Part shown: piece after piece, positions 3,913 to 24,283 of the stretch
Numbering within the stretch: position 1 is the stretch's first letter
How the letters are laid out: each line of letters opens with the position of its first letter
NCBI GenBank assembly: GCA_025362555.1
Contig: JANYFP010000399.1
Location: 1-33,812 of the forward strand
From: Verrucomicrobiota bacterium
GTDB lineage: Bacteria > Verrucomicrobiota > Verrucomicrobiia > Opitutales > Opitutaceae
DNA: 33,812 nucleotides
Reading direction: 5' to 3'
Translations under genes and position numbers: made by a program
Notes under the pieces: generated by a model
The model's input: only the letters and a program-made list of their open reading frames with translations
Told to the model about the DNA's origin: nothing
Databases searched by the model: none

Positions 3913-6900
3913 TCATTGCCCCGGCGCTTTCGTGCGAATGGCGTAGAGCGAACTGCGCGCCGTGATGAACAAAGTTCGCCGGTCGGCGCCACCGAAAACC
4001 AGTGCACTGGGACGCTCGGGCACGTCGATCGTGCCGAGTGACCGGCCTGATTTATCGTAGACGAAAATCTGCCCGGCACAGACGTAAACATTCCCGTCGG
4101 CATCGACGGCGGTGCCGCATTCTCCTTCCTCGGCGAAAAGCTGCGGCTCGGCGAGAGTGCCGTCGGGTTGCACCAAAAAACTCCACGTCTTCTGATTAAA
4201 TTCATCAGCAACAAAAAATTTCCGGCCAGGCACGGCGGGGGCGAGCGCATAAGTTCGAGCAAGGTCCACCGGGCCAAGTCCCCAATTGCGCCCCGGCTGC
4301 CCAACTAGCGGATAAGACTCCGGCGCTGGAATAAAAACACTTCCGTCCGCCGAGACAAAATGCAGTGGCTCACGGCGCGTGCTGGCCGCGACAAAATTAT
4401 GTTCATCACGCCAACGATTGACCGGCAACCATGCAATGGCATCCGTTCGAGCAGCAGCCACCACGGGTGAAATCACTGCCAACGAGGCGTCACTCGCTCC
4501 GGGTGGCAGCGAGTAAACGGTGCCGTGTGCGGAAACGATCAGCAGACAACCGCGGCCATCGAGCGCAAGCGCGACCGGTTGCAAGGCGGCATCAGAAATT
4601 ACTTCAACACGTTTTCCGGACTGCGACCAACGGTAGATTGTATTCCAGCGCTGATCCGCGAAGTACACGTCGCCCGCGGCATCCGCCACGGCGCCGTCGA
4701 TGTTATTAAAGCCACCGGCGAGCAGTGCAATTTTCGCTCCAGCTTCGAGTACGGCCGAGTCATTTGTCAGTCGCGCCGCCGCAGATTCACCCGAAACCGT
4801 CAGCCAGGCAATTTCCCGCGCGCGCACCTGTGCCCCGGAATCGGAGTCGATCAGCGTGTTATCGAAAGTGTATTTCCCCGGACTGTAGGCGTGAACCCCA
4901 CGGAAATGAATATCGCGGGAAGCCGTCACTTTGATCCCCGTGGCAAACGGAGTTTCAGTGTCGACGCGGTAGATGAAGAAATTGGCGAAAGTAAGATTGC
5001 TGCAATGTTCGATTTCCAAGGGCAGCGCGTGCGGGCTTTCACCCCGCTCCTCCTCGGTTTGCAGATCGTAGATCTGCCAATTTGAAACCCGGCGAAAAAT
5101 GACTTCGTGGCGGACGTGATGCTCGCTCGAGAGAGCATAAATTCGACCGGAAGTCGTCGTATCGGTGATGACCATGCCAGCGGACGCGAACGGGCTCGGG
5201 GTCCAAATCCCCTTGAATGTTCCACCGCCGCCATCCGTCACCCACAGGCTCGGAAATTGCGCATCCCACCGGCGGTGCGGATCGGCATCCGCAGTGCGCG
5301 TGTTGTTATAGATTTCGAGCCACTGCCCATCCGGACCGTAGGTGCCGTGACCGCCGATAAAACGAACATCGTTCACGAGCGAGTTCGCACCCGCCATCCA
5401 TTTGAGTGCAACCGCGCGGTTATTAATGCCGCCGGTATCGAGCCCGATGCCGGTGAGAATATTACTTCCACCCTTCGGCGCTTCGAGCAAAGCCTTCGGC
5501 GCACCGATGCCAGGAAACGGTGGCAACTGAAGAAAACTGCGTGGCACACCCGGAATATTGGGTGGCTTCGGAGCGGTGGTCGGCCCGTTCACGCCCTGAA
5601 ATACCGCCGTATAATCGGTGAGAATAATCTGCGTGGTGATTGGATTTAGCCCGATGAGCACCGTCTCCGGCTTGAGCGTGATCGTATCGCTCACGCGGTA
5701 ACGGCCACTGGGCAGATAGATCGTGCGGTGGTGAGCAATGGCGGTGCGCAATGCATCGGTGTCGTCTGTGACGCCATCTCCTTTTGCTCCGAATGAACGC
5801 AGGTTCGCCCACGACGCTTGAGGCGGTAGAGCAGGAATATCCGAGGGCACGGCCACAGGCATCGCCTCGAGTGCGACCGCATCCACTAACGTTTTGATTT
5901 CACCGACGGCCCCGGGCTCGGCGATGTGCCAGCCGTGGGAAAATTCCTTCACGCGATAAAGCGATCCCTGGCCCGGCACTTCGCGGCCGCTCTCCCGGAA
6001 ATGGGCAAAAACTGGGACGTTCGCACAAACTGTATCCTGCAAATTGATCTGCGTGCGGGCGCTTTTCTCATCGCTGATCACCAATGCCGGGCCCGTGATA
6101 TTTTCAAAGCGGGAATCTTTCATCCAAAGTTCTTCGGCCCGATTCTCGCGCACCAGAATTGCAGTTGGCAAATTTTTATACTGCGTACGAACAAGCGTGA
6201 GTCCGCCTTCCTCGGTTTCAATCGCCGCCTGGCGCTGGCCTTCGAACGTGGAATCAATCAGCAAAAACGGCCAGCTCGGCGACGGCTTATGGGTCGTGAT
6301 GCCAAATTCGCCTCCGTAAAAATGGAGGTCCTCCGCCTCGTTTCCTACTTCCTCGATGCCGGCGCGACCCTGTCCGATCCGAAAATCCATGTGGGCCAGA
6401 TAACCGTGTTGCGCGTAATGCGTCCGCACCCCCACCGCCGCGCGATTGCCATCGCCGATCTCGAGATCGATGTTGCTCATCGCCGAATAAAACGTGCCGG
6501 GATTGGCATCGCGCACGGGCCGGTCGGGTGGGGCTGGGCGATCGCTGACGAAGTGTACGAGATATTTTCCTTCACCCTCCTGGAAACCCGGCGTATTTGG
6601 CGCGAGGACAAACACCGGGCGATTTGCGCCGTAGCCGATCAAGCGAATTCCACTCCAAACCAGCAGCGTGCGCGTCAATCGGTAGCGCCCCGCCGGAATG
6701 AAAACAATGCCGCGCCGCGTTGTCTCCTGCACCCGGTCAATCGCCTTTTGCAGCGCCCCGCTGTCGTCGGCCACGCCGTCGGCGCGCACGGCAAAATCTT
6801 CTTTAGTCACGTAGACCGCAGCCGAATCCTCCAACCGCTGCGGATAGAAAGATGCCGCAGTCAAGGCAGGAGCGAGCGCAACAACCGAAAAAATCCCAAC

Positions 6901-6915
6901 GAACAATGAGCGCAT
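3913..6915 (-). CDS. Secreted GH55-like double beta-helix protein with C-terminal SMP-30-like propeller
   Basis: This 1000-residue protein has a signal peptide at about residues 1-21. Two right-handed beta-helix domains of the pectate-lyase-3 type follow. The first starts at residues 41-60 (ADGVADDSGALQKAI) and the second at about 370-392 (SFGAKGDGVTDDTDALRTAI). Two tandem helices, each opened by this motif, are the hallmark of GH55 exo-beta-1,3-glucanases. The stretch SSEHHVRHEV to LQTEEERGESP (about 596-627) recalls the EHH to QTE region of that family. Residues from about 730 to the end look like a gluconolactonase/SMP-30 six-bladed propeller (DAAGDVYFADQRWNTIYRW; C-terminal ADRRTLFITARSSLYAIR). 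It is the last gene of the glycan cluster, 80 nt after GH43. Hydrolysis of beta-1,3-glucan is inferred; the family could instead be an uncharacterised pectate-lyase-like group. Confidence 0.75.
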   Translation of the reverse strand: MRSLFVGIFSVVALAPALTAASFYPQRLEDSAAVYVTKEDFAVRADGVADDSGALQKAIDRVQETTRRGIVFIPAGRYRLTRTLLVWSGIRLIGYGANRPVFVLAPNTPGFQEGEGKYLVHFVSDRPAPPDRPVRDANPGTFYSAMSNIDLEIGDGNRAAVGVRTHYAQHGYLAHMDFRIGQGRAGIEEVGNEAEDLHFYGGEFGITTHKPSPSWPFLLIDSTFEGQRQAAIETEEGGLTLVRTQYKNLPTAILVRENRAEELWMKDSRFENITGPALVISDEKSARTQINLQDTVCANVPVFAHFRESGREVPGQGSLYRVKEFSHGWHIAEPGAVGEIKTLVDAVALEAMPVAVPSDIPALPPQASWANLRSFGAKGDGVTDDTDALRTAIAHHRTIYLPSGRYRVSDTITLKPETVLIGLNPITTQIILTDYTAVFQGVNGPTTAPKPPNIPGVPRSFLQLPPFPGIGAPKALLEAPKGGSNILTGIGLDTGGINNRAVALKWMAGANSLVNDVRFIGGHGTYGPDGQWLEIYNNTRTADADPHRRWDAQFPSLWVTDGGGGTFKGIWTPSPFASAGMVITDTTTSGRIYALSSEHHVRHEVIFRRVSNWQIYDLQTEEERGESPHALPLEIEHCSNLTFANFFIYRVDTETPFATGIKVTASRDIHFRGVHAYSPGKYTFDNTLIDSDSGAQVRAREIAWLTVSGESAAARLTNDSAVLEAGAKIALLAGGFNNIDGAVADAAGDVYFADQRWNTIYRWSQSGKRVEVISDAALQPVALALDGRGCLLIVSAHGTVYSLPPGASDASLAVISPVVAAARTDAIAWLPVNRWRDEHNFVAASTRREPLHFVSADGSVFIPAPESYPLVGQPGRNWGLGPVDLARTYALAPAVPGRKFFVADEFNQKTWSFLVQPDGTLAEPQLFAEEGECGTAVDADGNVYVCAGQIFVYDKSGRSLGTIDVPERPSALVFGGADRRTLFITARSSLYAIRTKAPGQ

Positions 6916-6995
6916 AATTTAAGGCCGAGCGGTGATGAGGAACGGGAAATTGACGGTCAAAAAATAGCCCGGAAAAAAAACTCCCCCCATTCGCA

Positions 6996-8594
6996 TCAGC
7001 ATGACGTTTTAGAATAATGAAATGAATCGAAGTCCGCCGGCAGACCGAGATCGCCACTGTCTTGCGCGCACAAAACAGCAAAGGCTCCGGTGAAACCCCA
7101 ACCACCGCCTTCGTGGACAAAATCATCGGAGAGCGTCGTCGCATCGATGCCGGCAATCAACACGACGGCAACGGCGTCCGGCGCGTCGACGCCGAGAATG
7201 AAGCGGAGTGCGCCATCATTGAGTTCCGCCACAATGGCCACCGCACCGGTACCCGGCAACGGATGCGGGGGCATAAGCAAGTCGGCAAACTTCCCATTTA
7301 ACGCGGCAAGGATCCGCAATTCACGTTGGCCGGAATCGTCGCAACTGATGCAGGCATAATAAAAATTTTCCGTGTTATAATAGAGCGCAAGGCCGGCCGT
7401 TTGCTGAAAACTTCGTGGATAAAACTCCAATCGCGTCGAGATTCGGCAACGCGGGTGCAACAAACGAAATCCGATCAGGCTCTGATCGAACATCGAATTC
7501 AACGAATGCCGGCCACGCAGCCGCAAGTAGCCCGGGCGCTCCGCGAGGGAGAGCCAACTGGCGTCCGCCGGTTCGCGTAGTGTGTTCCATTGCAGATCGA
7601 GTTGTGACGCATTGAACGAGTCCACGAAGTCGGGCAAATAATCCGTTGCGACCGCCGTCCCTGGAACGTCGACGGTCAGCGCGGGAAGATTTCCCTGCGG
7701 CAATCGCGGCCAATCACCCTCCGGCCAATCAAACGGCTGCAGTGCGGTCTCGCGGCCCAGGATACACCGTCGCTTCGCACCACGGGGACGACTGCAAAGA
7801 TAAACGACGTACCAGCAACCGTCCGGCGACTGAACCAAGCAACCGTGACCCGTTTTTTGGAGCGGATGCGCCGCAAAATCACGGGCACTCAGCAACGGAT
7901 GATGCGGGGATAACTCATAGGGGCCAACGAGTGAGCGCGAGCGAGCCACTGTAACCGCGTGTTCGAAACCGGTGCCACCTTCCGCCGTGACCAAGTAGTA
8001 ATAGTTGTCCTTTAAATAGAGATGCGGGCCCTCGGTGACCCCAAGCGCACTCCCTTTAAAAATAGTCACTGGCTCACCCACGAGCTGCTGCTGGGCCACG
8101 GAATATTCCTGCAGCGCGATCCCGGCGAAAGCATTCCGACCAGGGCGCGGGTCCCAAATTTGATTGATGATCCATTTGCGGTCATCGGTGTGGTCGTGGA
8201 AAAGCGAAGGATCAAACCCACTTGAATTGAGCAACACCGGCTCCGACCACGGACCTTCAATGCGCGGCGCCGTCACGAGATAATTGCGCACGTCCTTGAA
8301 GATACCGTTGAGCGACTTCGCGTTGGAATAAATTAGCCAAAAACGTCCGTCCGCGTAGCTCAGGCACGGCGCCCACACGCCGCCGGAATCGGGATTACCC
8401 CGCATCTCCAGTTGAGAACGGCGGGTGAGCGCATAGCCGGCAAGTTCCCATTGCACGAGATCACGCGAGCGATGAATCCGCACGCCCGGCCACCATTCAA
8501 ACGTCGAATTCGCGAGGTAATACCACTCTCCCACCCGGACAATGCTCGGATCGGGATGGAAGCCGGGGAGAATAGGATTCGTGACCGTGGACAT
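6996..8594 (-). CDS. Glycoside hydrolase family 43 protein (beta-xylosidase/arabinofuranosidase type)
   Basis: The ATG at 8594 gives a 532-residue protein starting MSTVTNPILPGFHPDPS. GH43 five-bladed propeller residues are present: the general base Asp15 in FHPDPS, the pKa-modulating Asp128 in GFDPSLFHD, and the general acid Glu188 in GVTEGPHLY. The C-terminal part, from about residue 320, resembles the beta-sandwich domain attached to XynB-like GH43 enzymes (FYPRSFQQTAGLALYYNTENFYYACIS). No signal peptide is visible, which suggests a cytoplasmic enzyme acting on imported oligosaccharides. A longer in-frame start at 8645 exists but runs into the upstream palindrome. The family usually releases xylose or arabinose. 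That does not match the beta-glucan signals of its neighbours, so the substrate is open. Confidence 0.9.
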   Translation of the reverse strand: MSTVTNPILPGFHPDPSIVRVGEWYYLANSTFEWWPGVRIHRSRDLVQWELAGYALTRRSQLEMRGNPDSGGVWAPCLSYADGRFWLIYSNAKSLNGIFKDVRNYLVTAPRIEGPWSEPVLLNSSGFDPSLFHDHTDDRKWIINQIWDPRPGRNAFAGIALQEYSVAQQQLVGEPVTIFKGSALGVTEGPHLYLKDNYYYLVTAEGGTGFEHAVTVARSRSLVGPYELSPHHPLLSARDFAAHPLQKTGHGCLVQSPDGCWYVVYLCSRPRGAKRRCILGRETALQPFDWPEGDWPRLPQGNLPALTVDVPGTAVATDYLPDFVDSFNASQLDLQWNTLREPADASWLSLAERPGYLRLRGRHSLNSMFDQSLIGFRLLHPRCRISTRLEFYPRSFQQTAGLALYYNTENFYYACISCDDSGQRELRILAALNGKFADLLMPPHPLPGTGAVAIVAELNDGALRFILGVDAPDAVAVVLIAGIDATTLSDDFVHEGGGWGFTGAFAVLCAQDSGDLGLPADFDSFHYSKTSC

Positions 8595-8629
8595 TAAAAT
8601 ACGCGCAGGCAGAATGCGATCAGAGGTGG

Positions 8630-8651
8630 AGCGGGTTGACCTCAACCCGCT
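8630..8651. repeat. REP-like palindrome between GH16 and GH43
   Basis: A perfect 10-bp inverted repeat, AGCGGGTTGA and TCAACCCGCT, is separated by CC. It is the same element as 2181-2204. No U-tract follows on either strand, so it is more likely a dispersed repeat or an mRNA-stabilising hairpin than a terminator. Confidence 0.7.
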
Positions 8652-8722
8652 GGGTCGGGCGGCGACATTGAAGACTCGCGATCATCGCAGAGAAAATTGG
8701 GCGGCATCATTACGAGGGAAGA

Positions 8723-9598
8723 TCACCGTGTGACCGCAGGAACAATGTCTCGCTGATAGACACGGACAAAATCCACCTCCATGCGCTGGGGAAATGACTT
8801 GTCATCGATTCCCTTGACCGCGCCCCAGTCGCCACCCACGGCCAGATTCAGAACGAGATAAAAATCCCGCGTGAATGGCCACGTCGTCCAATCCCCGCCG
8901 TCACGGCGCGAAGTGAAATACGGCCGGTCGTCCACATAAATGCGGATTTCCTCCGCGTCCCATTCCAGCGCGTAAGTATGAAAAGCAGTGCCGGCATCGG
9001 GCACCGGTATCGTCGCAGTGCGCTGAGTATTATTTTTCCATTGATTCTTCCTCGAATGAGTCGAGGCATGAACCACGCCGGGATTATGGCCCACGTGCTC
9101 CATGATATCGATTTCCCCGTTGTCGGGCCATTGGCCGTCACCGAGATTCCACACCGTCGGCAACATCCAGATGGCCGGCCACGTGCCGCGTCCGAGGGGC
9201 AGTTTTGCCCTGATTTCAAACCGGCCCGCCGGCCAATCGCCTTTATTCTTCGTGACGAGCCGAGCGGAGGTGTAAGCGGCGCCCTGCCACGCTTCGCGCC
9301 GCGCCTCGATCACGAGGTGACCATTCTCCACGCGGGCATTTTCCTGCCGCGCATAAGTGTAGAACTCCAATTCGTGATTGCCCCAACCATTGCCGCCGAC
9401 GTCGTAGCTCCAACGAAGCGGATCCGGTAAGCCGAGCTGATCGAATTCATCATGCCAAACCAATTTCCAGCCAGTGGGCGCGCGGAATTCCGTGGCCGGA
9501 GTTTCAGCCCGAGCAAAAACCGCCCAAAACGCGGCGAACGCGATTGAGAGGAAGTGAAATTGGAGCGGGTTTCGCGGTGAAGAGTTGAAATAATTCAT
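8723..9598 (-). CDS. Secreted GH16 beta-glucanase (laminarinase-like)
   Basis: This 291-residue enzyme is predicted to hydrolyse internal beta-1,3 or mixed beta-1,3/1,4 glucosidic bonds. An N-terminal signal peptide runs to about residue 31 (FAAFWAVFARA). The GH16 jelly-roll follows with LVWHDEFDQ near the start, GRFEIRAKLPLGRGTWPAIWMLP, and the catalytic motif GEIDIMEHVG, in which Glu162 is the nucleophile, Asp164 the helper and Glu167 the acid/base. The extra Met in EIDIME is typical of laminarinases and distinct from the EIDIE of carrageenases. Length equals a single catalytic domain with no carbohydrate-binding module. It lies between GH30 and GH43 in the same orientation, with gaps of about 120-130 nt. 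Confidence 0.95.
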   Translation of the reverse strand: MNYFNSSPRNPLQFHFLSIAFAAFWAVFARAETPATEFRAPTGWKLVWHDEFDQLGLPDPLRWSYDVGGNGWGNHELEFYTYARQENARVENGHLVIEARREAWQGAAYTSARLVTKNKGDWPAGRFEIRAKLPLGRGTWPAIWMLPTVWNLGDGQWPDNGEIDIMEHVGHNPGVVHASTHSRKNQWKNNTQRTATIPVPDAGTAFHTYALEWDAEEIRIYVDDRPYFTSRRDGGDWTTWPFTRDFYLVLNLAVGGDWGAVKGIDDKSFPQRMEVDFVRVYQRDIVPAVTR

Positions 9599-9721
9599 GG
9601 AAGTTCTGCGTTTACCCCCGACAAATCGCCCGCACCACTGGCCTCATTATTTTCACGAATGATCGCGATTCAGAACATTCACGGTGGCATATTTTCGGGG
9701 AGAATTGCCCTCCTCCGCGGC

Positions 9722-11140
9722 TCAGCGCGCAGCGCCAACGTAGCTCTGGATGGCGTGAGCGGGAATGGTGCAGGCCAGCGATTCGGCGTCGACGGTAAGA
9801 TTGAAGGTGATCGCGAGGTCGGTCTCATTGAGCACGACCGTGACGAGCGAGCCGTCCGGATTCACGAAGGCCACGGATTGCAACGCGGCCGGCCCGCCGG
9901 TCGACGCGATCCGGTGAGCGCCGGGTTTCACAAATTTGCTGAACTGACCGATGTAGTAGAACGCGCTTTGGTAACGCACTTCTCCGGTGCGGGTATCGAT
10001 AATCACCGGAGCGTCACAGAAATTGCCGACATGATTCGGGCCGCCGCGCTGATCGAGGACGATATTCCAATCGATGAAGCCGCAAACCCAGTGATTGAAA
10101 TCACCCATCATCTGATGAGCGTAGCCCTCGCCATGCTGCCAGAGGCCGATGCCGCCACCGCCCTCCCAGCAACCTTCCGTGAAAAGAATGTGTTTGTCCG
10201 GATACGCGGCGTGCACGCGGGAGGATGCGGCGAAGTCATTGCTCACATACCAGTGCAGCGCGGCACCCCAGAGGTATTTCGACGAAGCCGGATCACCGAA
10301 AAGAGCGGCAACCTGCTTTTCTAAAATGTCGCGATTGTGGTCGAAGCCGAGCAGCTTCACCTTTTGCAATCCGGCTTTCTCAAGCGCAGGTCCGAGATGA
10401 TCGCGGACAAAATCGCGTTCCTGCTCCGGTGAATAGAGGCAGGATTCCCACACCTGATTGGCTTGGGGTTCATTTTGCACGGTCAGAGCCCAGATGGAAA
10501 GTTTCTCTTCCCGCTCCATCGCTTGCACAAATTTGACGTAGTATTGCGCCCAGGCCGGGGCGTATTCACTGCGCAACGAGCCGCCGGCATCCATCCGGTT
10601 ATTCGTTTTCATCCATGCCGGAGGACTCCACGGGGAAACCAGCAAATTCAATTTTCCCTTTGCCGCGTTGTTCGCGTCGTGGAGCAGCGGCATGAGCCAG
10701 CGCCGCATCGGTGCGAGGGAGAAATTGAGCAAATCATAATCACCAGGCGTCTCATCGAGCGCCCACATGTTAAGCGAAAAATCGCAACTGTTGAGGTGCG
10801 TGCGGGCGAGTGTGTAACCCAAACCTTCCTGGGGATCGAAATAGCGATGAAGCACCTCGGCGCGTTTTTCGGCGGGCAGTTGAGCCAGCACCCACGCGGA
10901 TGATTCGGTCAATGCGCCGCCGAAGCCGCTCATCTCCTGAAACTGCTGCGCCGGATTGAGGGTCAATGCGGCCGAAGAGGCGGCACCACTGGAAACCACG
11001 GGAGAGGCAATCGGGCTTAAGCGGTGCGAATTATCACGCGCGGTTTCGATCACGGACCACGTGCGGGCGGAAGAGGTAGCGAACATGACGGGTGCAATCA
11101 GGAGTGAGCCTGCGAACATTAATTTTTCAGAGATTTTCAT
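9722..11140 (-). CDS. Secreted GH30 glycosidase (beta-1,6-glucanase / glucosylceramidase-like)
   Basis: The ATG at 11140 yields a 472-residue protein with a hydrophobic signal peptide (KLMFAGSLLIAPVMFATSSA). GH30 features include EMSGFGGALTESSAWVL, GYTLARTHLNSCDFS, LLVSPWSPPAWMKTN, the acid/base Glu224 in TVQNEPQ and the nucleophile Glu322 in LFTEGCWE. A small C-terminal beta-sandwich follows. The NSCDFS and PWSPPAWMK pattern fits the glucosylceramidase/beta-1,6-glucanase subfamilies better than the xylanase one. Next to a GH16 laminarinase, this suggests removal of beta-1,6 branches from a beta-1,3-glucan. Subfamily and substrate are inferred. Confidence 0.93.
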   Translation of the reverse strand: MKISEKLMFAGSLLIAPVMFATSSARTWSVIETARDNSHRLSPIASPVVSSGAASSAALTLNPAQQFQEMSGFGGALTESSAWVLAQLPAEKRAEVLHRYFDPQEGLGYTLARTHLNSCDFSLNMWALDETPGDYDLLNFSLAPMRRWLMPLLHDANNAAKGKLNLLVSPWSPPAWMKTNNRMDAGGSLRSEYAPAWAQYYVKFVQAMEREEKLSIWALTVQNEPQANQVWESCLYSPEQERDFVRDHLGPALEKAGLQKVKLLGFDHNRDILEKQVAALFGDPASSKYLWGAALHWYVSNDFAASSRVHAAYPDKHILFTEGCWEGGGGIGLWQHGEGYAHQMMGDFNHWVCGFIDWNIVLDQRGGPNHVGNFCDAPVIIDTRTGEVRYQSAFYYIGQFSKFVKPGAHRIASTGGPAALQSVAFVNPDGSLVTVVLNETDLAITFNLTVDAESLACTIPAHAIQSYVGAAR

Positions 11141-11251
11141 TGGCAATGAATTAAACCAAACGACCGGCTCCACTCCATTTGAGAGCAAAGCTTTTGCTTG
11201 CTTGAAGACTGACGGGGGTCTCGAAATACGGGAGAGATGGCGACAGGGAAA

Positions 11252-12631
11252 TTAGTTGCTCACGGGCGGCGCGACGGCGGCTTTGCGGGCGGCGAGTTCG
11301 CGCTCCATTAACTTCACCGTCGGCTCATCCAGCCGGTAAAAGACAATGGCGAGGCCGGCCAGGAGAGCGAAGCTTCCGGGCAGCAAACTGAAAAGCAGGT
11401 TAATGCTGTGCAAGGCCCGCGGGGTCTGCTCGGCGTTGGCCACGTAACCGGAGTAGCTGCAAAGCCAACCGATCATCGCCCCACCGATCGCGAGGCCGAC
11501 TTTCTGCGCCAGGACCGTCGCAGAAAAAACCAAGCCGGTGGCGCGGCGGCCGAACTTCCATTCGCCGTAATCGGCGGTGTCGGCGTAGAGCGACCAGACG
11601 ATGGCCGGCGTCGGACCGGCGGCGAAACTGCCGAGGATATTCAACGCGTACAGCAGCGGAAGATTATGCGGGTCGACAAAATAGCACAGCCCGATGCCCA
11701 GCGCGTTGACGATGGTCAAACCGATCATCAGCGAACGCCGCGAGAAGTAGCGCGTGAACAGTTTCGTGGAAAGCGCCCCCAGAATAAAACAGATGAAACC
11801 AACAAGATTGAAAGTGCCGAGGCTCGTTTCCCGACCGACGCAGTATTTAAAATAAAAGATACCAGCACCACTGCGAAGCCCGACGTTGGTCAGATTGAGG
11901 AATGCGACGAAGAAGAGCACGAGCCAGGGCTTGTTGGCCAGCAAGTCGCGGAGATCGGGACCGATCGAGGAACCCTGACTCGGCGGCGACTTCACGCGCT
12001 CGCGGGTGTTCGCAAAGGTATACAAAAACATGGCCACTGAGATCACGGCGAAGATCGCCATCGTGTTGCGGAATCCATCCGCCGGACTGCCACCCGCAGG
12101 GATCAGGAAATCCTTCATCCACGGCACGAGCCAACCGATGAGCAACGTGCCGGTGAAAGCACAGGCGAAGCGATAGGAAGAAAGCGAAGTGCGATCATCG
12201 GATGAGGGCGACATGACCCCCATGAGAGCGCCGTAGGGCGTGTTAATGGCCGCGTAGGCGATCAAGGTGAGCGTGTAAGTGATGTACGCATAAACGAGCG
12301 TGCCGTGAACACCGAAGCCGGGATTGGCAAACATGACATACCCCAAAATTCCGTACGGCAATGCGCCCCACAAAATCCAAGGGCGAAACTTACCCCAGCG
12401 AGTGTCGGTGCGATCGGCGATCATGCCGATGACGGGATTCAAGAGCGCCACCACACTCGGGATGAAGGCCATTAAGGTTCCGGCCGCTGAATCCTTGATC
12501 CCAAGGACGTCGATATAATAGTAGGCGAGGAATTGATTGAACGCCTGAAAATAAAAATTAGAGGCCGTGTCGCCCAAGCCGTAGGCGAATTTTTCCCGGA
12601 AGGAGAGACGTTGATCGTTGGGGGTAGACAC
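11252..12631 (-). CDS. GPH-family (MelB/XynP-type) sugar:cation symporter, MFS
   Basis: A protein of about 459 residues with 12 predicted membrane helices. It begins with the GPH signature LSFREKFAYGLGDTASNFYFQ, followed by DRTDTRWGKFRPWILWGALPYG, the cation/sugar-symporter loop of the MelB family. The C-terminal tail is short. The role is uptake of an oligosaccharide or glycoside across the inner membrane, following the TonB-dependent receptor gene upstream. Start choice is uncertain. GTG at 12631 gives VSTPNDQRLSFREK, the usual distance to the first motif, while a TTG at 12673 would add 14 residues. Neither has a good ribosome binding site. Confidence 0.9.
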   Translation of the reverse strand: MSTPNDQRLSFREKFAYGLGDTASNFYFQAFNQFLAYYYIDVLGIKDSAAGTLMAFIPSVVALLNPVIGMIADRTDTRWGKFRPWILWGALPYGILGYVMFANPGFGVHGTLVYAYITYTLTLIAYAAINTPYGALMGVMSPSSDDRTSLSSYRFACAFTGTLLIGWLVPWMKDFLIPAGGSPADGFRNTMAIFAVISVAMFLYTFANTRERVKSPPSQGSSIGPDLRDLLANKPWLVLFFVAFLNLTNVGLRSGAGIFYFKYCVGRETSLGTFNLVGFICFILGALSTKLFTRYFSRRSLMIGLTIVNALGIGLCYFVDPHNLPLLYALNILGSFAAGPTPAIVWSLYADTADYGEWKFGRRATGLVFSATVLAQKVGLAIGGAMIGWLCSYSGYVANAEQTPRALHSINLLFSLLPGSFALLAGLAIVFYRLDEPTVKLMERELAARKAAVAPPVSN

Positions 12632-12730
12632 AGCAGCGAGTGGGGTTGAGAGAGAAGCTTCAGCGAAGACCAAAGCGTCACCAAAGGATAGGCGCTACAC
12701 AGCAGCGCGGAAGACAAATCAGTACTTTTG

Positions 12731-12766
12731 AAAATAGCGCGCACCAGCATGTCAGCTGGTGCGCGT
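12731..12766 (-). terminator. Probable intrinsic terminator after the TonB-dependent receptor gene
   Basis: A 10-11-bp perfect stem, GCGCACCAGC paired with GCTGGTGCGC, surrounds a 6-base loop. Read on the minus strand it is followed by TATTTTC. It lies 27 nt past the receptor stop and upstream of the symporter, so it could attenuate transcription between receptor and downstream enzymes. Confidence 0.6.
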
Positions 12767-12792
12767 GAACCCTAAACTAACCCTAAATGTTT

Positions 12793-15711: not shown

Positions 15712-15833
15712 AACAGGGGAGCAGTTATATCGGGTTTGGTTTTACCACTGCGCAGTCGCCCGTCCGTCAAAATTCTCAAAGAGAAAATAGGCCGGAAAAC
15801 AAGCGACTACTGGGGCAAGAAACATGGGGGGAT

Positions 15834-15887
15834 AGGTTACATCGACCATTCGCTGTGACTGTTTTTATGAACCGATAAGTGTAACCT
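15834..15887. promoter_or_regulatory. Perfect 8-bp inverted repeat in the receptor/LacI intergenic region
   Basis: AGGTTACA at 15834-15841 is mirrored by TGTAACCT at 15880-15887, with arms 38 nt apart. The repeat lies about 120-175 bp upstream of the receptor start and within the divergent promoter region. LacI-family operators often contain this kind of GTTAC/GTAAC half-site, so these may be two operator halves or two separate sites. No function is demonstrated. Confidence 0.4.
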
Positions 15888-15903
15888 AATGTCAACTTAG
15901 AGG

Positions 15904-15919
15904 TGCACAACAACGTGCA
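15904..15919. promoter_or_regulatory. Palindromic operator candidate
   Basis: TGCAC-AACAAC-GTGCA is a perfect 5-bp inverted repeat at the edge of the AT-rich tract. A related TGCAT occurs at 16026-16030. Size and position fit a LacI-type operator, but a chance palindrome is possible. Confidence 0.3.
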
Positions 15920-16070
15920 TTAAAAAAAAACAAAACAATTAAATTAAAAATAATTTATCATCAATAATTTATGATATTAAAAATAGAATAATAGAATGGA
16001 AATTAGCATTCATATCATATTTTGGTGCATAACATATTGCTCTTATTATTTGCGTCCCTTTAACTAGCAC
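15920..16070. promoter_or_regulatory. AT-rich divergent promoter region
   Basis: This stretch between the receptor and LacI genes is strongly AT-rich (runs such as TTAAAAAAAAAC and ATTAAAAATAATTTATCATC) in an otherwise GC-rich window. No open frame of note is present. It probably holds UP-element-like and promoter sequences for one or both divergent genes. No convincing -35/-10 pair could be fixed by eye. Confidence 0.5.
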
Positions 16071-16134
16071 TGTGTATAAAAAGAAGTCACCGCCACCACC
16101 CACTTCTGGCCTGCCCGCCCGCCCCCTTTCTGGA

Positions 16135-17190
16135 ATGCCCGCTGTCAATCAGGACCTCATCGCCACCAAGCTTAATATCTCCCGCACCACGGTGTCGCGG
16201 AGCTTGGCCAACCATCCCGCGATCAGCACCGAGACGCGCGCCAAAGTCCACGCCATGGCCGAGGAACTGGGCTATCGACAAAGCCCGGGCCGCGCCGGCC
16301 GCCGCCACGGCAGAGGCGCACGTGCGATCACCATCGGCGTCCTGATCGGAATTCCCGCCGAGAATGTCGTGATGGCGACCTTCCCCTATATCTTGAAGGG
16401 AATTCGTGAACGCGCCGAAGTGGAACACGTCAAGGTTGACGTCTATTATCAGTCGCCGGACGGCTTTCAGATTGAGTCCAACCGCCAATCGCTTTTCCGA
16501 CACCTCCGCAACGGTGACTGGCGCGGCACGATTCTCATTTACCCATTCACCGAATCTGCGGTCGAGATGATTGCCCGAAAAATTTCCACGGTGGCGGTAC
16601 TCGAAAGCTACAACCATCCCGGCGTTGATATCATCGATACGGACGACGCCGAGGCCGTGGTCTCGCTCGTCGAATGCCTGCACACCGCCGGCCACCAGCG
16701 CATCGGTTTCATCTCCTGGCACTACCCGATTGGCGGCCATTGGGTCGCTCGCCGATTCAGCGGCTACGTCGAAGCCCTTTTCCTTCACGGCTTGGAATTC
16801 CGCCCCGAATGGGTGCTGAACGTGAACAAGAATGGCCCTCGCCTCACGCCTACCGAAGTCGCCGACGCGGCCGCCCGCATCATCAAGGAATCCGGCGTTA
16901 CCGCCTGGGTCTGCGCGGCGGATCACCAAGCCTACCAACTCATGCAAGACCTGCAGGCGCGCGGCATTCGCGTGCCTGAGGATTGCTCCATAACCGGCTT
17001 CGATGGACTCGAACCAGCAACCGGAGTCCGCCGGGCCACCTCCATGCGCGTCCCGCACGAACACATCGGTTCCTCGGCGCTCACCCGCTTAATCAATCGC
17101 ATCGAACACCCCGCATCACCCCGCCGGAAAATTCTGGTGGAAGCCCAACTCGTCACCGGCGAAACCATCGCCCCGCCAAAAAGCCCCTGA
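16135..17190 (+). CDS. LacI-family transcriptional regulator
   Basis: A 351-residue DNA-binding sugar sensor. The helix-turn-helix is at residues 5-27 (NQDLIATKLNISRTTVSRSLANH), followed by the hinge-helix region. A periplasmic-binding-protein-like ligand domain then includes ITIGVLIGIPAENV, HTAGHQRIGFISW and the C-terminal marker CSITGFDGLEPA. The ATG at 16135 puts the helix-turn-helix at the usual distance from the N-terminus. A GTG at 16072 would add a proline-rich 21-residue extension and is less likely. It is divergent from the glycan-uptake genes and upstream of the phosphorylase-like gene, so it probably controls both in response to an imported oligosaccharide. Confidence 0.93.
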   Translation: MPAVNQDLIATKLNISRTTVSRSLANHPAISTETRAKVHAMAEELGYRQSPGRAGRRHGRGARAITIGVLIGIPAENVVMATFPYILKGIRERAEVEHVKVDVYYQSPDGFQIESNRQSLFRHLRNGDWRGTILIYPFTESAVEMIARKISTVAVLESYNHPGVDIIDTDDAEAVVSLVECLHTAGHQRIGFISWHYPIGGHWVARRFSGYVEALFLHGLEFRPEWVLNVNKNGPRLTPTEVADAAARIIKESGVTAWVCAADHQAYQLMQDLQARGIRVPEDCSITGFDGLEPATGVRRATSMRVPHEHIGSSALTRLINRIEHPASPRRKILVEAQLVTGETIAPPKSP

Positions 17191-17600
17191 GCCACGCCCG
17201 CTCCACCCCCCCCCGTGCAGGCAATTTTTACTCATCAATTTCACCCCACTATTTTCCCCGCAGTGCATTTTCTAAACCACAAAGGCTGTCCCTTCCTGCT
17301 GTAAGAGGCGCTTTACGCCCCGATTTGCCTGGCGACGGCCAGAACACCCCCCGCACGGGTCGCAACCAGCAACGGCCTTTCCCGAATTCCGCGCATACAG
17401 TCCGTCCCCCAGCCTTCAGGAAACGCTCCAACTCTTTCCCATAAATCCGGTGCCGCCGTCGGCATCGACCCACCACGGACCACCCCTCCCAATCAGCCGG
17501 TGATCCACCCATTCCAACCCGCCCGCGAGGATTCCTTTCCTCCCGCCGAGCCCCTCCCCGCTCTCCATTGATTTCGGATCAGCGGAAAAAATCTCATTCC
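17191..17600. other. Intergenic region between LacI gene and phosphorylase-like gene
   Basis: About 410 nt with no convincing gene. It contains a small hairpin-forming stretch (GGCGCTTTACGCC near 17308-17320) in a context resembling dispersed intergenic repeats. The C-rich part after it shows no clear promoter. Short open frames here lack coding character. Confidence 0.5.
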
Positions 17601-20600
17601 ATGCAGCCCGCTTCCATCGCCCGCGCGTCCACTGATCCCGAGCCCACCGGGACTCTCGTCAACGCATTCGGCGGACGTTACTATCGCATCACCCACTCCG
17701 ATCGCCTCCCCACATTTTTTATGAATGTGGTCAGCTCCTCCGACTTGTGGCTCTTCCTCGCCAGCAACGGCGGTCTGACCGCGGGCCGCATCAATGCCGA
17801 GCACGCCTTGTTTCCCTACGAAACCGTCGATCGCATCTACGACAGCGCCGGAATAAATGGCCCCGTGACCGCACTCTGGGTCGAAACCAACGGCACCGCC
17901 ATCCTCTGGGAACCATTCGCGCGCCGCACTGCCGCCCACGCCGCTATCACGCGTAATCTCTATAAAAGCGTGGAAGGCGATCGCGTGTGGTTTGAAGAAA
18001 TAAATCCGACCCTGGGCCTGACGTTTCGGTACGGCTGGAGCACTTCCGAGGCACACGGCTTTATCCGCCGCAGCGAACTCGAAAATCTCACCGACCAACC
18101 CCGGAGCGTCCGCGTGCTCGACGGTCTGCGCAATATCCTGCCTTCCGGCATCCCGCTTCGGCTGCAGAGTAGCAGCAGTTGCCTCGCCGATGCCTACAAA
18201 ACGGCAGAGCTGCACGCGGGCACCTCGCTCGCCGTCTACGCGCTCGCGGCGGCAATCGTGGATCGCGCCATTCCACTCGAATCACTTCGCTCCAGCATTG
18301 TCTGTGCCGAAGGGTTGACTGGGGCTGTCGTTTTGCTCTCGGACCGCCAACTCGGTAAATTCTATGAAGGTAAAATGCCTGTCGCCGAGTCCCACAGCCG
18401 CGGTCTGCGCACGAGCTATTTTCTCACCGCCACGGTGTCGCTCGCCCCGAGGGAAACGCAGCGTTGGATGATGGTCGCCGACGGAGGCCTCAGCCAATCC
18501 GACGTCACCCTGCGCCACCGTGCGCTCGTCTCGGGCAACTTCGGGACCAGTGTAATCGCCGCCGCTGATTCATCCACCCAGCGACTGCGCCAACTCGTCG
18601 GCGCCGCCGACGGCTTGCAGGCCGGCGCGGAAGAAGCCACCAGTGCCCACCATTTCGCCAATGTCCTTTTCAACATCATGCGCGGCGGCATCTACGTCAG
18701 CGGCCATGATATCCCCGGCCGTGACTTCGCCGCCTTTGTCCATACGCGCAATCGCGCCGCTGCGGAACGTTTCGCCGCACTCCTGGCCGCACTGCCCGAA
18801 ACCCTGTCGCGCCCGGATTTCCTCGCGCGCCTCACCGCGCCGGCTGATCGCGACCTCGAACGCCTAGGCTACGAATACCTGCCGCTGACCTTCAGTCGCC
18901 GTCACGGCGATCCCAGCCGGCCGTGGAATCGATTCAGCATTCGCGTGCGCGACGCCCAGGGCAACCGCCTCCTCAGCCACGAGGGCAACTGGCGCGACAT
19001 TTTCCAAAACTGGGAAGCGCTTGGTTTGAGCCATCCGGAATTCTTCGAGAGCATCGTCACCAAATTCGTCAACGCCTCCACCCGCGACGGCTACAATCCG
19101 TACCGCGTCACCCATGCCGGCATCGATTGGGAGGTGCCGGATCACGAGGACCCGTGGTCTTCCATCGGGTATTGGGGCGACCACCAAGTCATCTATCTGC
19201 TCAAACTGCTCGAATGGTCCGGACGCTTCCACCCCGGCCGACTGGAAACCTGGCTGCGCCGCGATCTTTTCAGTTACGCGAACGTACCCTATCGCATCGC
19301 CGGCTATCCCGCGATGCGCCAGGATCCGCATGTCACCATCGAATTTGATGCCGCGCAAAACCGCACCATCGAACAGCTCACCACAAAGGCTGGCACCGAT
19401 GGACGGCTGGTGCAACGCGAGAGTGGCGGCGTGCTGCACGTCAACCTCACCGAAAAGCTTCTCATCCTCGCCCTCACCCGGTTGACCAATTTCGTCCCCG
19501 GCGGCGGCATCTGGATGAATACGCAGCGGCCCGAGTGGAACGATGCCAATAACGCGCTCGTCGGTTACGGCGTGTCCGTGGTCACACTCGGTTATTTGCG
19601 CCGCCTGCTGGTCCACCTCCAACGCGAATTCCTGCCCGCCCTGGGCGCGGCCCCGGTGGCAATTTCTCCTCCGGTGGTCACGCTCCTCCGTAGCTTGCAA
19701 ACGGCCTTCGACACTCATCGCACGCTGCTGAATGTTGCCCCAATCAATCCGTCCGCCCGACGTGCCTTACTCGATGCTCTGGCCACTGCTGGCACCGACT
19801 ACCGTACGCAAGTTTACACCACAGGCCTCGGCGCTCCCACCGATCTTTCGCCCCGGGAGATTGCGCAATGGGTTGAAACCGCTCTCGCCTTTGTCGACCA
19901 CACGCTACGAACAAACCGCCGCAGCGACGGACTCTACCACTCCTACAATTTACTCGAATTCGCCGAGGAACCCGCCGCGCTCAATCTCCATTACCTCAGT
20001 CCGATGCTCGAGGGTCAGGTGGCAATTCTCAGTTCCGGTTTACTCAACGCGTCCGAGGTGATCGAACTCCTCACTGCCCTGCGCCAGAGCGCACTCTATC
20101 GGGCTGACCAACAGAGTTACCTGCTATATCCGGATCGGCAACTGCCGGGCTTCTTGGCCAGAAACATCATTCCCGACGATGCGATCGCAGGGTGTCCATT
20201 ACTCTCCGCCCTGCTCGCCGCCGGCGACCCGCGACTGATCCTGCGCGACGCGGCTGGCCGCCACCGTTTCGCCGCCGATCTCACCAACAGCACGGCACTG
20301 AATGAGCGTCTCACGCAACTCGCGGCCGACACGCTTTGGGCGAGCGCAGTAAAAACTCACGCACCGCAAATCAGAGCCATCTACGAGAATGTCTTCAATC
20401 ATCGCGCCTTCACCGGACGCAGCGGTTCGATGTTCGGCTACGAGGGCTTGGGGTGTATTTACTGGCACATGGTGGCGAAACTTCTCCTCGCAGTGCAGGA
20501 GAATTTATTCGCCGCAGAAGCCGCCGGCGATCCGCACGCCTCACGCCTCGCGGCGCTCTATTACGACGTGCGCTCCGGACTTGGCTTCAACAAAACACCC

Positions 20601-21077
20601 GCCGCCTACGGCGCATTCCCCACCGATCCGTATTCGCATACGCCCGGACACTCTGGCGCACAGCAACCCGGCATGACCGGCCAGGTCAAAGAAGAAATTC
20701 TCACGCGCCTCGGCGAACTCGGCGTTAAAATCGCCCACGGCTGCGTCAGTTTTAATCCAACGTTGCTCCAGGCCGGCGAATTTTTATCGGCTCCGGGAAA
20801 GCTTCCGTTTTTTTCCGCCGGCCAAGAAACCGCTCTGGATCTGCCGACAGGATCACTCGGCTTTTCTTTCTGCGGAACACCCGTGATCTACCAATTGAGT
20901 CAGGGGCCGGCCACGATCCAAGTTCATCAATCCGACAGTATCACTCAGCATATCATCGATCGGAAACTCGATGCCGTAAGCAGTGCGCGTCTCTTCGCCC
21001 GCGACGGCAGCATTCACCATCTTACCGTCCAACTCGGATCTGATTTTCAAGCCTGGCGAGGAAACGCAGAGTATTGA
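17601..21077 (+). CDS. Large cytosolic GH94-clan-like protein, candidate beta-glucan phosphorylase (GH149/GH161 type)
   Basis: The ATG at 17601 gives 1158 residues without a signal peptide. An N-terminal beta-sandwich-like region (AFGGRYYRITHSDRLPTFF, LASNGGLTAGRINAEHALFPYETVDRIY) precedes a linker and a probable (alpha/alpha)6 barrel. The most family-like blocks are YEYLPLTFSRRHGDPSRPWN, EGNWRDIFQNWEAL (461-474), DPWSSIGYWGDHQ (517-529) and PEWNDANNALVGYG, where WND (646-648) sits like the catalytic WND of GH94-type phosphorylases. Over 1100 residues is the size of beta-1,3-glucan phosphorylases of GH149/GH161. The cluster (GH16, GH30, GPH symporter) supports phosphorolysis of imported beta-glucan oligosaccharides to glucose 1-phosphate. 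Assignment is from remembered family features; a hydrolase or unknown family in the same fold is possible. Confidence 0.6.
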   Translation: MQPASIARASTDPEPTGTLVNAFGGRYYRITHSDRLPTFFMNVVSSSDLWLFLASNGGLTAGRINAEHALFPYETVDRIYDSAGINGPVTALWVETNGTAILWEPFARRTAAHAAITRNLYKSVEGDRVWFEEINPTLGLTFRYGWSTSEAHGFIRRSELENLTDQPRSVRVLDGLRNILPSGIPLRLQSSSSCLADAYKTAELHAGTSLAVYALAAAIVDRAIPLESLRSSIVCAEGLTGAVVLLSDRQLGKFYEGKMPVAESHSRGLRTSYFLTATVSLAPRETQRWMMVADGGLSQSDVTLRHRALVSGNFGTSVIAAADSSTQRLRQLVGAADGLQAGAEEATSAHHFANVLFNIMRGGIYVSGHDIPGRDFAAFVHTRNRAAAERFAALLAALPETLSRPDFLARLTAPADRDLERLGYEYLPLTFSRRHGDPSRPWNRFSIRVRDAQGNRLLSHEGNWRDIFQNWEALGLSHPEFFESIVTKFVNASTRDGYNPYRVTHAGIDWEVPDHEDPWSSIGYWGDHQVIYLLKLLEWSGRFHPGRLETWLRRDLFSYANVPYRIAGYPAMRQDPHVTIEFDAAQNRTIEQLTTKAGTDGRLVQRESGGVLHVNLTEKLLILALTRLTNFVPGGGIWMNTQRPEWNDANNALVGYGVSVVTLGYLRRLLVHLQREFLPALGAAPVAISPPVVTLLRSLQTAFDTHRTLLNVAPINPSARRALLDALATAGTDYRTQVYTTGLGAPTDLSPREIAQWVETALAFVDHTLRTNRRSDGLYHSYNLLEFAEEPAALNLHYLSPMLEGQVAILSSGLLNASEVIELLTALRQSALYRADQQSYLLYPDRQLPGFLARNIIPDDAIAGCPLLSALLAAGDPRLILRDAAGRHRFAADLTNSTALNERLTQLAADTLWASAVKTHAPQIRAIYENVFNHRAFTGRSGSMFGYEGLGCIYWHMVAKLLLAVQENLFAAEAAGDPHASRLAALYYDVRSGLGFNKTPAAYGAFPTDPYSHTPGHSGAQQPGMTGQVKEEILTRLGELGVKIAHGCVSFNPTLLQAGEFLSAPGKLPFFSAGQETALDLPTGSLGFSFCGTPVIYQLSQGPATIQVHQSDSITQHIIDRKLDAVSSARLFARDGSIHHLTVQLGSDFQAWRGNAEY

Positions 21078-21144
21078 TCGCGCACATTGGACTGCGTTCC
21101 CCGCTCAAGCCTTCCTGTCCTCCCGCACAGGGCTACATTCGAGG

Positions 21145-21258
21145 GTAGGCAGCGTGCTGGCACGCGCGGATTGGGCAGTATCTTTGAAACGGCCAAGCCT
21201 GATGCGACCGACCGCTGTGCCTGCCGTCTCCGGAGCGCGTGCAAGCACGCTGGCCTAC
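21145..21258. repeat. Inverted pair of REP-like hairpins (BIME-like)
   Basis: A 22-nt arm at 21145-21166 (GTAGGC then AGCGTGCTGGCACGCG) is mirrored at 21236-21258 with one mismatch and one extra base. Each arm is itself palindromic (GCGTGC-TG-GCACGC; GCGTGC-AA-GCACGC). A further GCGAGCAAGCTCGC palindrome follows near 21279-21292. It lies in the gap after the phosphorylase-like gene. Confidence 0.75.
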
Positions 21259-21339
21259 GACGGAGGCCGGATTTGTATCGCGAGCAAGCTCGCTCGCACA
21301 GGTTCGGAGAAATCATCCTGGAAAACTCAGATGAGAAAC

Positions 21340-21469
21340 CGCTCATCTACGCTAATGTCGCTCATCAAGAAATTCAAAAAGCACTGGACCAAAAAAATGA
21401 TTCACCTGATCGGTGAACAACACTCCCTGAACGAAAGCCAAGTATGGCCTCCATTAGCGCCGATGAGCG
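21340..21469. repeat. Fold-back element of CGCTCATC/CGCTAATG units
   Basis: Left arm 21340-21357 reads CGCTCATC-TA-CGCTAATG. The right arm 21452-21469 is its inverse except for the central two bases. The left side continues with another CGCTCATC unit and the right with an ATTAGCGG unit, so each side is built from phased units of about 9-10 nt. It lies between two convergent genes and encodes nothing convincing. Confidence 0.75.
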
Positions 21470-21512
21470 AAAATTAGCGGTTAACTCACTGCGGAATTTA
21501 GGATCATTGCAC

Positions 21513-22451
21513 TCAACTCACGCCCCATTTCACCGACCAGCGAACCGTCGCACCGGCCGCGATCACGGCGAATTGCTTCCATTGCTCGACCGCGTCCTTC
21601 AATGAATCCGGCGCGGCATTCGTCGGCTCCAGCGCCACGTGATGAAACCCCGCGTGCCCGCGATTCAGCCACAAACCGAGATACGGAATATCCCGCACCT
21701 TCCACTCCAAAAACAATCGATCGCCCGTGTCATCATTGACGATTGCGGCACGGCCCACCTGCAACGGTCCAGCAAAGCCTTTGACACACCCCTTCGGCAT
21801 TCCTGGTGTCTCCAAACGATCGAGACGAAACCCGGCGAAAGGCTCGGGATAGGACCAGAGGTCGCCGGAATTAATTGGCCGATCGCCGAGTCCGCCGTTG
21901 AGCCTCAGCGTCGTCACTTCGGCGGGCAGCTCCAACCTGTCCCCTGACGTGATCGTGAACAACGGATGCAAGCACCACATGAACTCCTCCGCCGTAGCGC
22001 CGTGATTGGTTAAGGCGTAATCAAAAACAAACCCGCCGGATGCGTCCGCCCTAATCGTTCGGTGAAATACAAAAGGGGAAATCTTCAGCGGCACCGTCGC
22101 ACTCAAACGCCCGGCGGCCAACTCTGCCGCGTCGAGGTTCCAAGCTTCGGCCCACACTTCGCCATGATCTGGAATTGCCCGTCCGCGCCAGCGACAGGCT
22201 GCGACCGATGGAATACATTCATCCACTCCGGCCTGCGTGCTTTGACCAAAATCGTCACCTAACTGATTCGCCCAAAGCCAATCCGGCCGTTCCTGGTGCC
22301 AGCACCACTCGCGTCCCGTACGCCGGCTGCGCAGGCTGATGATGCGCCCGCCCAAGGCCGGAACCATTTCAAGTTCAGCCAACGCGGTCCGCAAACCCGT
22401 GACAGCAAATCCTTGCTCGGTGCGGGAAAATACTTCCGATGTGATCGCCAT
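21513..22451 (-). CDS. Aldose-1-epimerase-like (galactose mutarotase fold) protein
   Basis: The ATG at 22451 yields 312 residues starting MAITSEVFSRTEQGF. The fold-level features are those of the aldose epimerase superfamily: ALGGRIISLRSRRTGREW, then GVDECIPSV, a conserved His in CLHPLFTIT, and the C-terminal GLWLNRGHAGFHHVALEPTNA with a Glu positioned like the catalytic base. The likely role is interconversion of sugar anomers in the cytoplasm; no signal peptide is visible. It is convergent with the phosphorylase-like gene, which suits a role in handling sugars from phosphorolysis. Members of this sequence subgroup are mostly uncharacterised, so substrate is unknown. Confidence 0.8.
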   Translation of the reverse strand: MAITSEVFSRTEQGFAVTGLRTALAELEMVPALGGRIISLRSRRTGREWCWHQERPDWLWANQLGDDFGQSTQAGVDECIPSVAACRWRGRAIPDHGEVWAEAWNLDAAELAAGRLSATVPLKISPFVFHRTIRADASGGFVFDYALTNHGATAEEFMWCLHPLFTITSGDRLELPAEVTTLRLNGGLGDRPINSGDLWSYPEPFAGFRLDRLETPGMPKGCVKGFAGPLQVGRAAIVNDDTGDRLFLEWKVRDIPYLGLWLNRGHAGFHHVALEPTNAAPDSLKDAVEQWKQFAVIAAGATVRWSVKWGVS

Positions 22452-22546
22452 TGCTACCAGCCAAGCTCGCAAAAAGAGCCGCGTCGAGCCAACAGCACGC
22501 CGGTCCACGCGCGGACCGCATGGGCGCATGTCAGTCTTTATCTGAT

Positions 22547-22616: not shown

Positions 22617-22759
22617 TAGGGGAAAACGAACGGCTTACAGAAATGGGGCTGCCTGCGGGCTGCGTCTTATGGTGCATTTAGCCTTGCCGCGCGGCGGCGG
22701 CTGGCTGTTTCTGATTTTTGGCAACTTGGGCTTCTCTCCGGCTGCCACCCTCCGCAGTT

Positions 22760-24283
<1,524 letters not shown>

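Follow-up and report, generated by a model that had tools for sequence, protein, structure and literature searches.

The closest described counterparts of the locus reported here are the laminarin polysaccharide utilization loci (PULs) of Woeseiaceae and Formosa. Woeseiaceae have laminarin loci that carry GH149 genes and of which seven possess only one SusC, and the part of that paper concerned with these loci also describes gammaproteobacterial PULs without SusD and typical structures missing in metagenome-assembled genomes (MAGs) of Verrucomicrobiota (PMC12175321). The Formosa laminarin PULs include, according to a figure legend, GH30, GH16/GH17, GH149, and an MFS transporter, and FbGH30 debranches laminarin as an exo beta-1,6-glucosidase (PMC6246565). 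Here we analyze a stretch of 33,812 nucleotides (the window; contig C434, GenBank JANYFP010000399.1) from the 5.19-Mb, 94% complete genome of an Opitutaceae member of the Verrucomicrobiota. It carries a locus with GH149 and GH16, a lone TonB receptor, and, by PF07980, no SusD, as in Woeseiaceae; those PULs belong to another phylum, and the sections describing them name GH3, GH17, GH13, GH158, and GT51 but not GH55 or GH43 (PMC12175321). Its GH30, GH16, GH149, and MFS-type transporter recall Formosa, although the Formosa PULs have SusD and the parts of the paper listing their genes name neither GH55 nor GH43 (PMC6246565). The core therefore belongs to a known type, here in a lineage that has been described less; what differs from the known loci is a slot holding a GH43 gene, a fusion of a GH55-like enzyme with a propeller, and a conserved hairpin. 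We think it fairly likely that this is an inducible locus by which an Opitutaceae-like bacterium uses a laminarin-like beta-1,3/1,6-glucan and, as an accessory step, releases xylose. Laminarin ranks among the main storage sugars of algae, and the locus and its kin represent a plausible, recurring route for its use in such bacteria. The features of the window are as follows.

3913-4755, minus strand: C-terminal SMP-30/gluconolactonase-type propeller of the GH55-like protein, residues 721-1000 (PF08450, E = 3.3e-19; 3e5z, E = 2.4e-10)
4756-6915, minus strand: GH55-like double beta-helix part of the same protein, residues 1-720, signal-like N-terminus (profile against 3eqn, E = 3.3e-20)
6996-8645, minus strand: predicted GH43 beta-xylosidase with GH43_C2 domain, 549 codons, probable start M18 (PF04616, E = 1.3e-92; PF17851, E = 1.5e-49)
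8723-9598, minus strand: GH16 laminarinase-like enzyme, signal-like N-terminus (3iln, PF00722)
9722-11188, minus strand: GH30 enzyme, signal-like N-terminus, probable start M17 (PF02055, E = 4.3e-74)
11252-12673, minus strand: GPH-family sugar:cation symporter, 473 aa (TIGR00792, 360.7 bits, cut-off 231.35)
12738-12765, minus strand: GC-rich hairpin with 11-bp stem between the receptor and symporter genes, 27 nt past the receptor stop
12793-15711, minus strand: lone TonB-dependent receptor (TBDR), 972 aa, first gene of the operon (Plug PF07715, E = 1.6e-11)
16021-16034, no strand: weak candidate LacI operator TTTGGTGCATAACA (3 of 14 positions off the palindrome TTTTGTGCACAAAA)
16072-17190, plus strand: LacI-family regulator, probable start M22 at 16135 (PF00356, PF13377; homologues in related loci)
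17568-21077, plus strand: predicted GH149 beta-1,3-glucan phosphorylase, 1,158 aa from M12 at 17601 (NF058639, 1453.9 bits, cut-off 1150)
21513-22529, minus strand: mutarotase-like protein, probable start at 22451 (DUF4432, E = 0.0011; 3q1n, E = 2.1e-4)

Six minus-strand genes form an operon in the order TBDR, GPH symporter, GH30, GH16, GH43, and GH55-like, with intergenic gaps of 119, 63, 123, 77, and 80 bp. The LacI and GH149 genes lie divergently on the plus strand, and the mutarotase-like gene is convergent with GH149. The original prediction, a compact beta-1,3/1,6-glucan locus of eight genes, named genes that are all present at 3913-22529, but it overlooked the GH43 gene, fifth in the operon, and its end point of 22451 fits an internal methionine (M27) of an epimerase-like open reading frame that reaches 22529. 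It had the locus ending in a phosphorylase; GH149 belongs instead to a divergent LacI-GH149 arm. Neither the sigma-70 promoters found (5, versus 8.6 in shuffled sequences) nor the terminator-like sites (35, versus 23.6, standard deviation 5.6) settle the transcription units.

The phosphorylase, formerly labeled only as GH94-clan-like, is more exactly assigned, by an NCBIfam equivalog score over cut-off and by its motifs, as a GH149 beta-1,3-glucan phosphorylase. The open reading frame has 1169 codons and no evident signal peptide, and its best matches among named records are in Opitutaceae/Opitutia MAGs (68% and 67% identity; L025 and L026). Residues 19-1156 align, near full length, with Pro_7066 (6hq6; 6hq8 also matched), and W657-N658-D659, R476-D477, and H967 correspond to W651-N652-D653, R470-D471, and H959 of that enzyme, as counted in the alignment, where the chain numbering and the published numbering differ by 19 throughout; these are the WND, RD, and phosphate-site His motifs in the structural account of Pro_7066 (PMC6771811).

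Two enzymes of the operon fit the same substrate. The GH16 protein, as anticipated, is of laminarinase type: its nearest solved structure is the laminarinase 3iln (E = 2.2e-92), and the motif GEIDIMEH stands at residue 161. For GH30, the best solved structures are human glucosylceramidase GBA1 (294 bits), 2wnw (290.6 bits), and 5ngk (212.8 bits; presumably BT3312), with AcXbh30A and xylanases far behind the glucosidases at no more than 89.4 bits. Against the BT3312 endo-1,6-beta-glucanase equivalog it scores 273.8 bits, short of the cut-off of 700, which places it in a related branch only. A GH30 near GH149 in a Formosa Hel1_33_131 MAG is 36% identical to it and is probably the exo-beta-1,6-glucosidase FbGH30 as that paper presents it (PMC6246565). 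So, from the order of structures, the BT3312 model, and the likeness to Formosa, the most fitting role for GH30 is removal of branches, by endo or exo action, and its place in the proposed glucan locus is supported.

A lone TonB receptor and a GPH (MFS-type) symporter had been proposed for uptake, and both are supported by domain and family matches. The best NCBIfam match of the receptor is the siderophore-type TIGR01783 (124 bits, cut-off 223.5); because this score is below cut-off and the gene heads a glycosidase operon, we set aside a plain siderophore receptor. The absence of SusD also held: PF07980 matched in none of 38 genomes, the window's own included (PF12741, PF12771, and PF14322 lay outside the search), and in one of 14 control genomes (Bacteroides ihuae), so that by PF07980 the locus lacks the SusD lipoprotein of a Bacteroidota SusC/D PUL. 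This layout had been taken as a Verrucomicrobiota style, but it is not special to the phylum, since PULs in Gammaproteobacteria, as presented in that report, are arranged likewise (PMC12175321). The sections of PMC6484121 considered here mention neither TonB nor Verrucomicrobi.

The core recurs in related bacteria. The comparison set for the window's genes was 27 fetched stretches (labeled L, with genomes labeled G; G000 is the window's own genome). Of 200 genomes sampled from the family, 42 have GH149 (39 over cut-off), as do 11 of 57 in a closer set; both counts include the window's own genome. G010 (L012, L013) retains the epimerase-like gene, GH149, LacI, TBDR, GPH, GH30, GH16, and GH55-like, without GH43; G023 (L014, L015) has GH149, LacI, TBDR, GH30, GPH, GH16, and GH55-like, without GH43 and the epimerase-like gene. 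G220 (L146, L174) has GH149 (77% identity; cut by the contig end), LacI (81%), TBDR (41%), GPH (88%), GH30 (82%), GH16 (78%), and GH43 (80%), with no GH55-like match. The same core in these three genomes supports the reading as a glucan locus. In G034 (L024) the order is GPH-GH43-GH30-TBDR-LacI-GH149, and in G091 (L145) it is LacI-TBDR-GH43-GPH-GH16-GH55-like, without GH149 at that place. We also note that the G220 receptor (L146 1665-4787) is only 41% identical to that at 12793-15711 while its other matched locus genes are at 77-88%, so that the receptor has either been swapped or changed very fast.

From these families we can propose a substrate and a flux. A hydrophobicity scan (best ten-residue mean; a crude measure and not a dedicated signal-peptide predictor) gives signal-like N-termini for the GH55-like protein, GH16, GH30, and the TBDR (2.28-2.71) and no export-like N-terminus for GH43 (0.68), LacI (0.60), or GH149 (0.65); the GPH symporter, which is a membrane protein, has 1.33, and the epimerase-like gene has 1.25. 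Of the enzymes predicted to be exported, GH16 would cut the beta-1,3 backbone, GH30 would take off beta-1,6 branches, and the GH55-like protein would trim beta-1,3 ends. The lone receptor would then bring fragments into the periplasm and the symporter small oligosaccharides into the cytosol, where GH149 would phosphorolyse beta-1,3-gluco-oligosaccharides to glucose 1-phosphate and GH43 would split xylosides arriving with the glucan. LacI may control both arms.

Several observations weigh against this proposal. First, the GH43 assignment points to xylosides, and the best GPH subfamily score (YagG, 371.5, under its cut-off of 610) leans the same way; nor is GH43 essential to glucan use, because the similar loci of G010 and G023 do without it. 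Second, the glucanase loci fetched from G016 and G091 contain no GH149, the stretch of the GH55-like protein taken as catalytic aligns to 3eqn with only 0.5 bits, and the best operator site in the window is weak, with 21 of 300 shuffles as good. Third, one study reports, in its account of Verrucomicrobiota MAGs, no laminarin PULs (PMC8857213), and Verrucomicrobiota contributed little of the beta-1,3-glucan genes of a bloom in the data described by another (PMC10877868). A Verrucomicrobia single-cell genome with laminarinase and xylanase genes was described in 2012 (PMC3335022). Overall, the interpretation as a beta-1,3/1,6-glucan utilization locus is partly supported: glucan use mostly stands, but not glucan alone, given a predicted beta-xylosidase inside the operon. 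The original prediction had named xylan-type family assignments as one sign that would speak against it; GH43, which recurs beside glucanase genes in three other genera, is such an assignment, so that this sign is present in part.

With its catalytic domain, C2 domain, and intact acids, GH43 is a predicted beta-xylosidase. It matches the xylan beta-1,4-xylosidase 1yrz (E = 2e-169; identical at 66% of the first 206 aligned columns), and D32, D145, and E205, which we take to be the GH43 catalytic acids, align with identical residues; we assume it to be of subfamily 11. It has no evident signal peptide and is probably cytosolic. In Escherichia coli, the xyloside symporter YagG is paired with the GH43 enzyme YagH, and a GPH symporter and a GH43 gene likewise share an operon here, embedded among glucanases. 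In a GH43 tree (L133 and L141 dropped for internal stops; L125 is the window's own gene), eight distinct sequences group with support of 96/99, and four of these adjoin glucanase genes (the window, L146, L145, and L024). The corresponding genomes (G000, G220, G034, and G091) represent four genera, and GH43 thus lies beside glucanases in three genera besides its own. The place between GH16 and the GH55-like gene is a variable slot, because its content differs among relatives: G010 has a GH2/GH5-like gene of 443 aa there, G016 has a second GH16, and G023 has nothing. Use of xylose by the source bacterium is plausible but not proven, because its genome gives two xylose isomerase matches, on two contigs, that are partial and below cut-off.

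Two alternatives give GH43 a different standing. One is that the locus serves plant or algal cell walls in general, a single receptor and symporter handling co-occurring beta-1,3-glucan and xylan with GH43 as an equal partner. The closeness of GH43 to a beta-1,4-xylosidase and the top YagG score of the symporter would suit this, as would the xylose isomerase (704 bits, cut-off 533.25) about 3.1 kb beyond the LacI gene in G091, the gene with sugar-binding and AraC-type domains about 1.8 kb beyond it (presumably XylR-like), and the succession of GH43 and GH3 in L148. We consider it unlikely, however: no xylanase family was recognized among the operon proteins, GH30 is not of the xylanase type, and the loci of G010 and G023 are without GH43. 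The other is that GH43 is a hitch-hiker from an older set of LacI, TBDR, GPH, and GH43 genes that slid into the operon and has no role in glucan use. That the other four members of the GH43 clade (L147-L150) are in loci that are linked to a LacI gene but show no match to the glucanases of the window, and that the GH16-GH55 place varies in G010, G016, and G023, would be expected of such an origin. However, GH43 is retained in other genomes: in G220 it adjoins GH16 and is 80% identical, in G034 it stands between GPH and GH30, and in G091 its neighbors are TBDR and GPH. We doubt this explanation to much the same degree. An accessory xylose-releasing step in a glucan locus remains our preferred reading, and a xylosidase within a glucan operon is a clean test case. 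Beside the LacI gene of two GH43 loci (L149 997-2019, L150 17166-17954) is a protein with a signal-like start, clan GH-A-like by eye, with no Pfam or NCBIfam match.

The GH55 relationship proposed for the 1000-aa protein also held. A profile of 17 homologues, the window's included, matches at positions 34-417 the 3eqn chain at 52-456, and thus reaches into both helices; 3eqn we take to be PcLam55A, with Glu633 as its presumed catalytic residue. Both proteins have SEHH and Q-x-E stretches with a spacing of 23 residues, which align, though with only 0.5 bits, at a place that we presume to be catalytic in PcLam55A; E598 and E621 are invariant in all 17 rows. PcLam55A differs in being distant in sequence and, as matched, a shorter chain of 758 residues. 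The likeness is at the level of sequence, as the single-sequence structure prediction has a mean pLDDT of 33.8, too low for use. A literature search returned nothing on GH55 catalytic residues, and one on a GH55-gluconolactonase fusion returned a marine fungus proteome and nothing else. Of 288 genomes sampled from the phylum, four have a match to the GH55-like protein at E <= 1e-60, three of these matches being full length and in the family (the window's own included) and the fourth, in the order, limited to the helix with an internal stop. A fused copy lies 2.9 kb from GH149 in G039 (L023), in another family of the order.

Among solved structures the propeller matches lactonases and designed propellers, not GH55, but it is predicted to be a non-lactonase binding part that probably holds glucan. 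Ten stand-alone paralogues from the same family of bacteria, selected from the listed matches and not at random, were set beside the 17 fused rows (L176 dropped because it matched the beta-helix part; L171 lacking the first stretch). The xDG Asp is present in all ten stand-alone rows and absent at its column from all 17 fused ones, and the xEG Glu is present in the nine stand-alone rows that cover it and absent from all 17 (15 Asp, 2 Ser); we take these to be lactonase metal-site residues, and the fused propellers thus lack the Glu-Asp pair of an SMP-30/gluconolactonase metal site. The fused rows share RWRD and DEF stretches, each in 15 of 17 (L161 and L162 differ), and E185 of the propeller domain is invariant in all 17. 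That the propeller is a still-active lactonase opening gluconolactone is very improbable given the consistent absence of both residues, even with the PF08450 match, the Asp that replaces Glu in 15 rows and might still bind metal, and four rows with an Asp one column off (L157-L160), which leave some alignment doubt at that column. As a candidate binding module, a propeller without lactonase residues is, with the xylosidase, a testable oddity beside a main pathway that is expected. A more speculative reading, to which we would give little weight, is that a retired lactonase propeller has become a new glucan-binding module in an operon for a xylose-bearing beta-1,3-glucan, or for glucan and xylan arriving together; if true, cytosolic phosphorolysis and xyloside hydrolysis would proceed side by side.

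Between the receptor and symporter genes, the hairpin has 11 pairs, nine of them G-C. The same stem core is found at the receptor-symporter junction of G220, G010, and G016, the hairpin having the same place in L146, L013, and L152, and the pattern GCGCACCRGN{5,12}CYGGTGCGC has one site each in G000, G010, G016, and G220, four of the eight genomes searched, and none in G023, G091, G034, and G199. One pair is changed on both sides, being A-T in G000 and G220 and G-C in G010 and G016. The hairpin seems tied to the operon rather than the receptor, because it is kept in G220 despite the divergent receptor there. In G023 and G034 the receptor is followed by other strong hairpins, unlike in sequence (equaled in 0 of 200 shuffles), and no strong one is present after it in G091 (16 of 200) or G060 (75 of 200). 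A REP-like repeat family was rejected as the source, the element being single copy in each genome where it is present. Its likely role is in differential expression, permitting different amounts of receptor and enzymes.

For LacI, the palindrome TTTTGTGCACAAAA was derived from a comparison among the promoter regions of the window and its relatives. At up to three mismatches, nine of its 15 sites in 13 fetched loci (the window's own excluded) are in promoter regions, a count that is partly circular because the motif was derived from the same regions. The half-site TTTGTG (up to two mismatches) occurs in seven of 13 promoter regions, the window's not among them, versus two to four in shuffles, and in the window a 12-base version shows no excess (10 sites against 12.6 expected).

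The gene called an epimerase is weakly mutarotase-like (18.3 bits against DUF4432, under the cut-off of 32.5) and adjoins GH149 in two relatives (L012, L025); it is a linked neighbor outside the operon. The gap between it and GH149 (21078-21512) has no inverted repeat of at least 10 bp. In place of the mutarotase-like gene, GH17-like genes adjoin GH149 in L026 (13433-14452) and L016 (8234-9274), and in L155 a GH17-like gene (14908-15999) is one gene away from GH149.

Adjoining the GH55-like gene in L013 (6340-7671) and L155 (2900-4195) is a protein of 431-443 aa with a signal-like start, possibly GH158 by our assumption; the L013 copy has a weak GH2_C match, and openings in two Woeseiaceae GH149 loci (L068, L089) are similar to it by eye. 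A PF10091 'Glycoamylase' protein, of a family that we believe to include beta-1,2-glucanases, follows the GH55-like gene in G091 (L145 16513-17904). An adenylosuccinate synthetase gene (22718-24283) flanks the locus, and an opening similar to it by eye near the G010 locus (L012 6632-8197) suggests a common chromosomal site. A tRNA-Gly (CCC) gene lies at 30014-30087.

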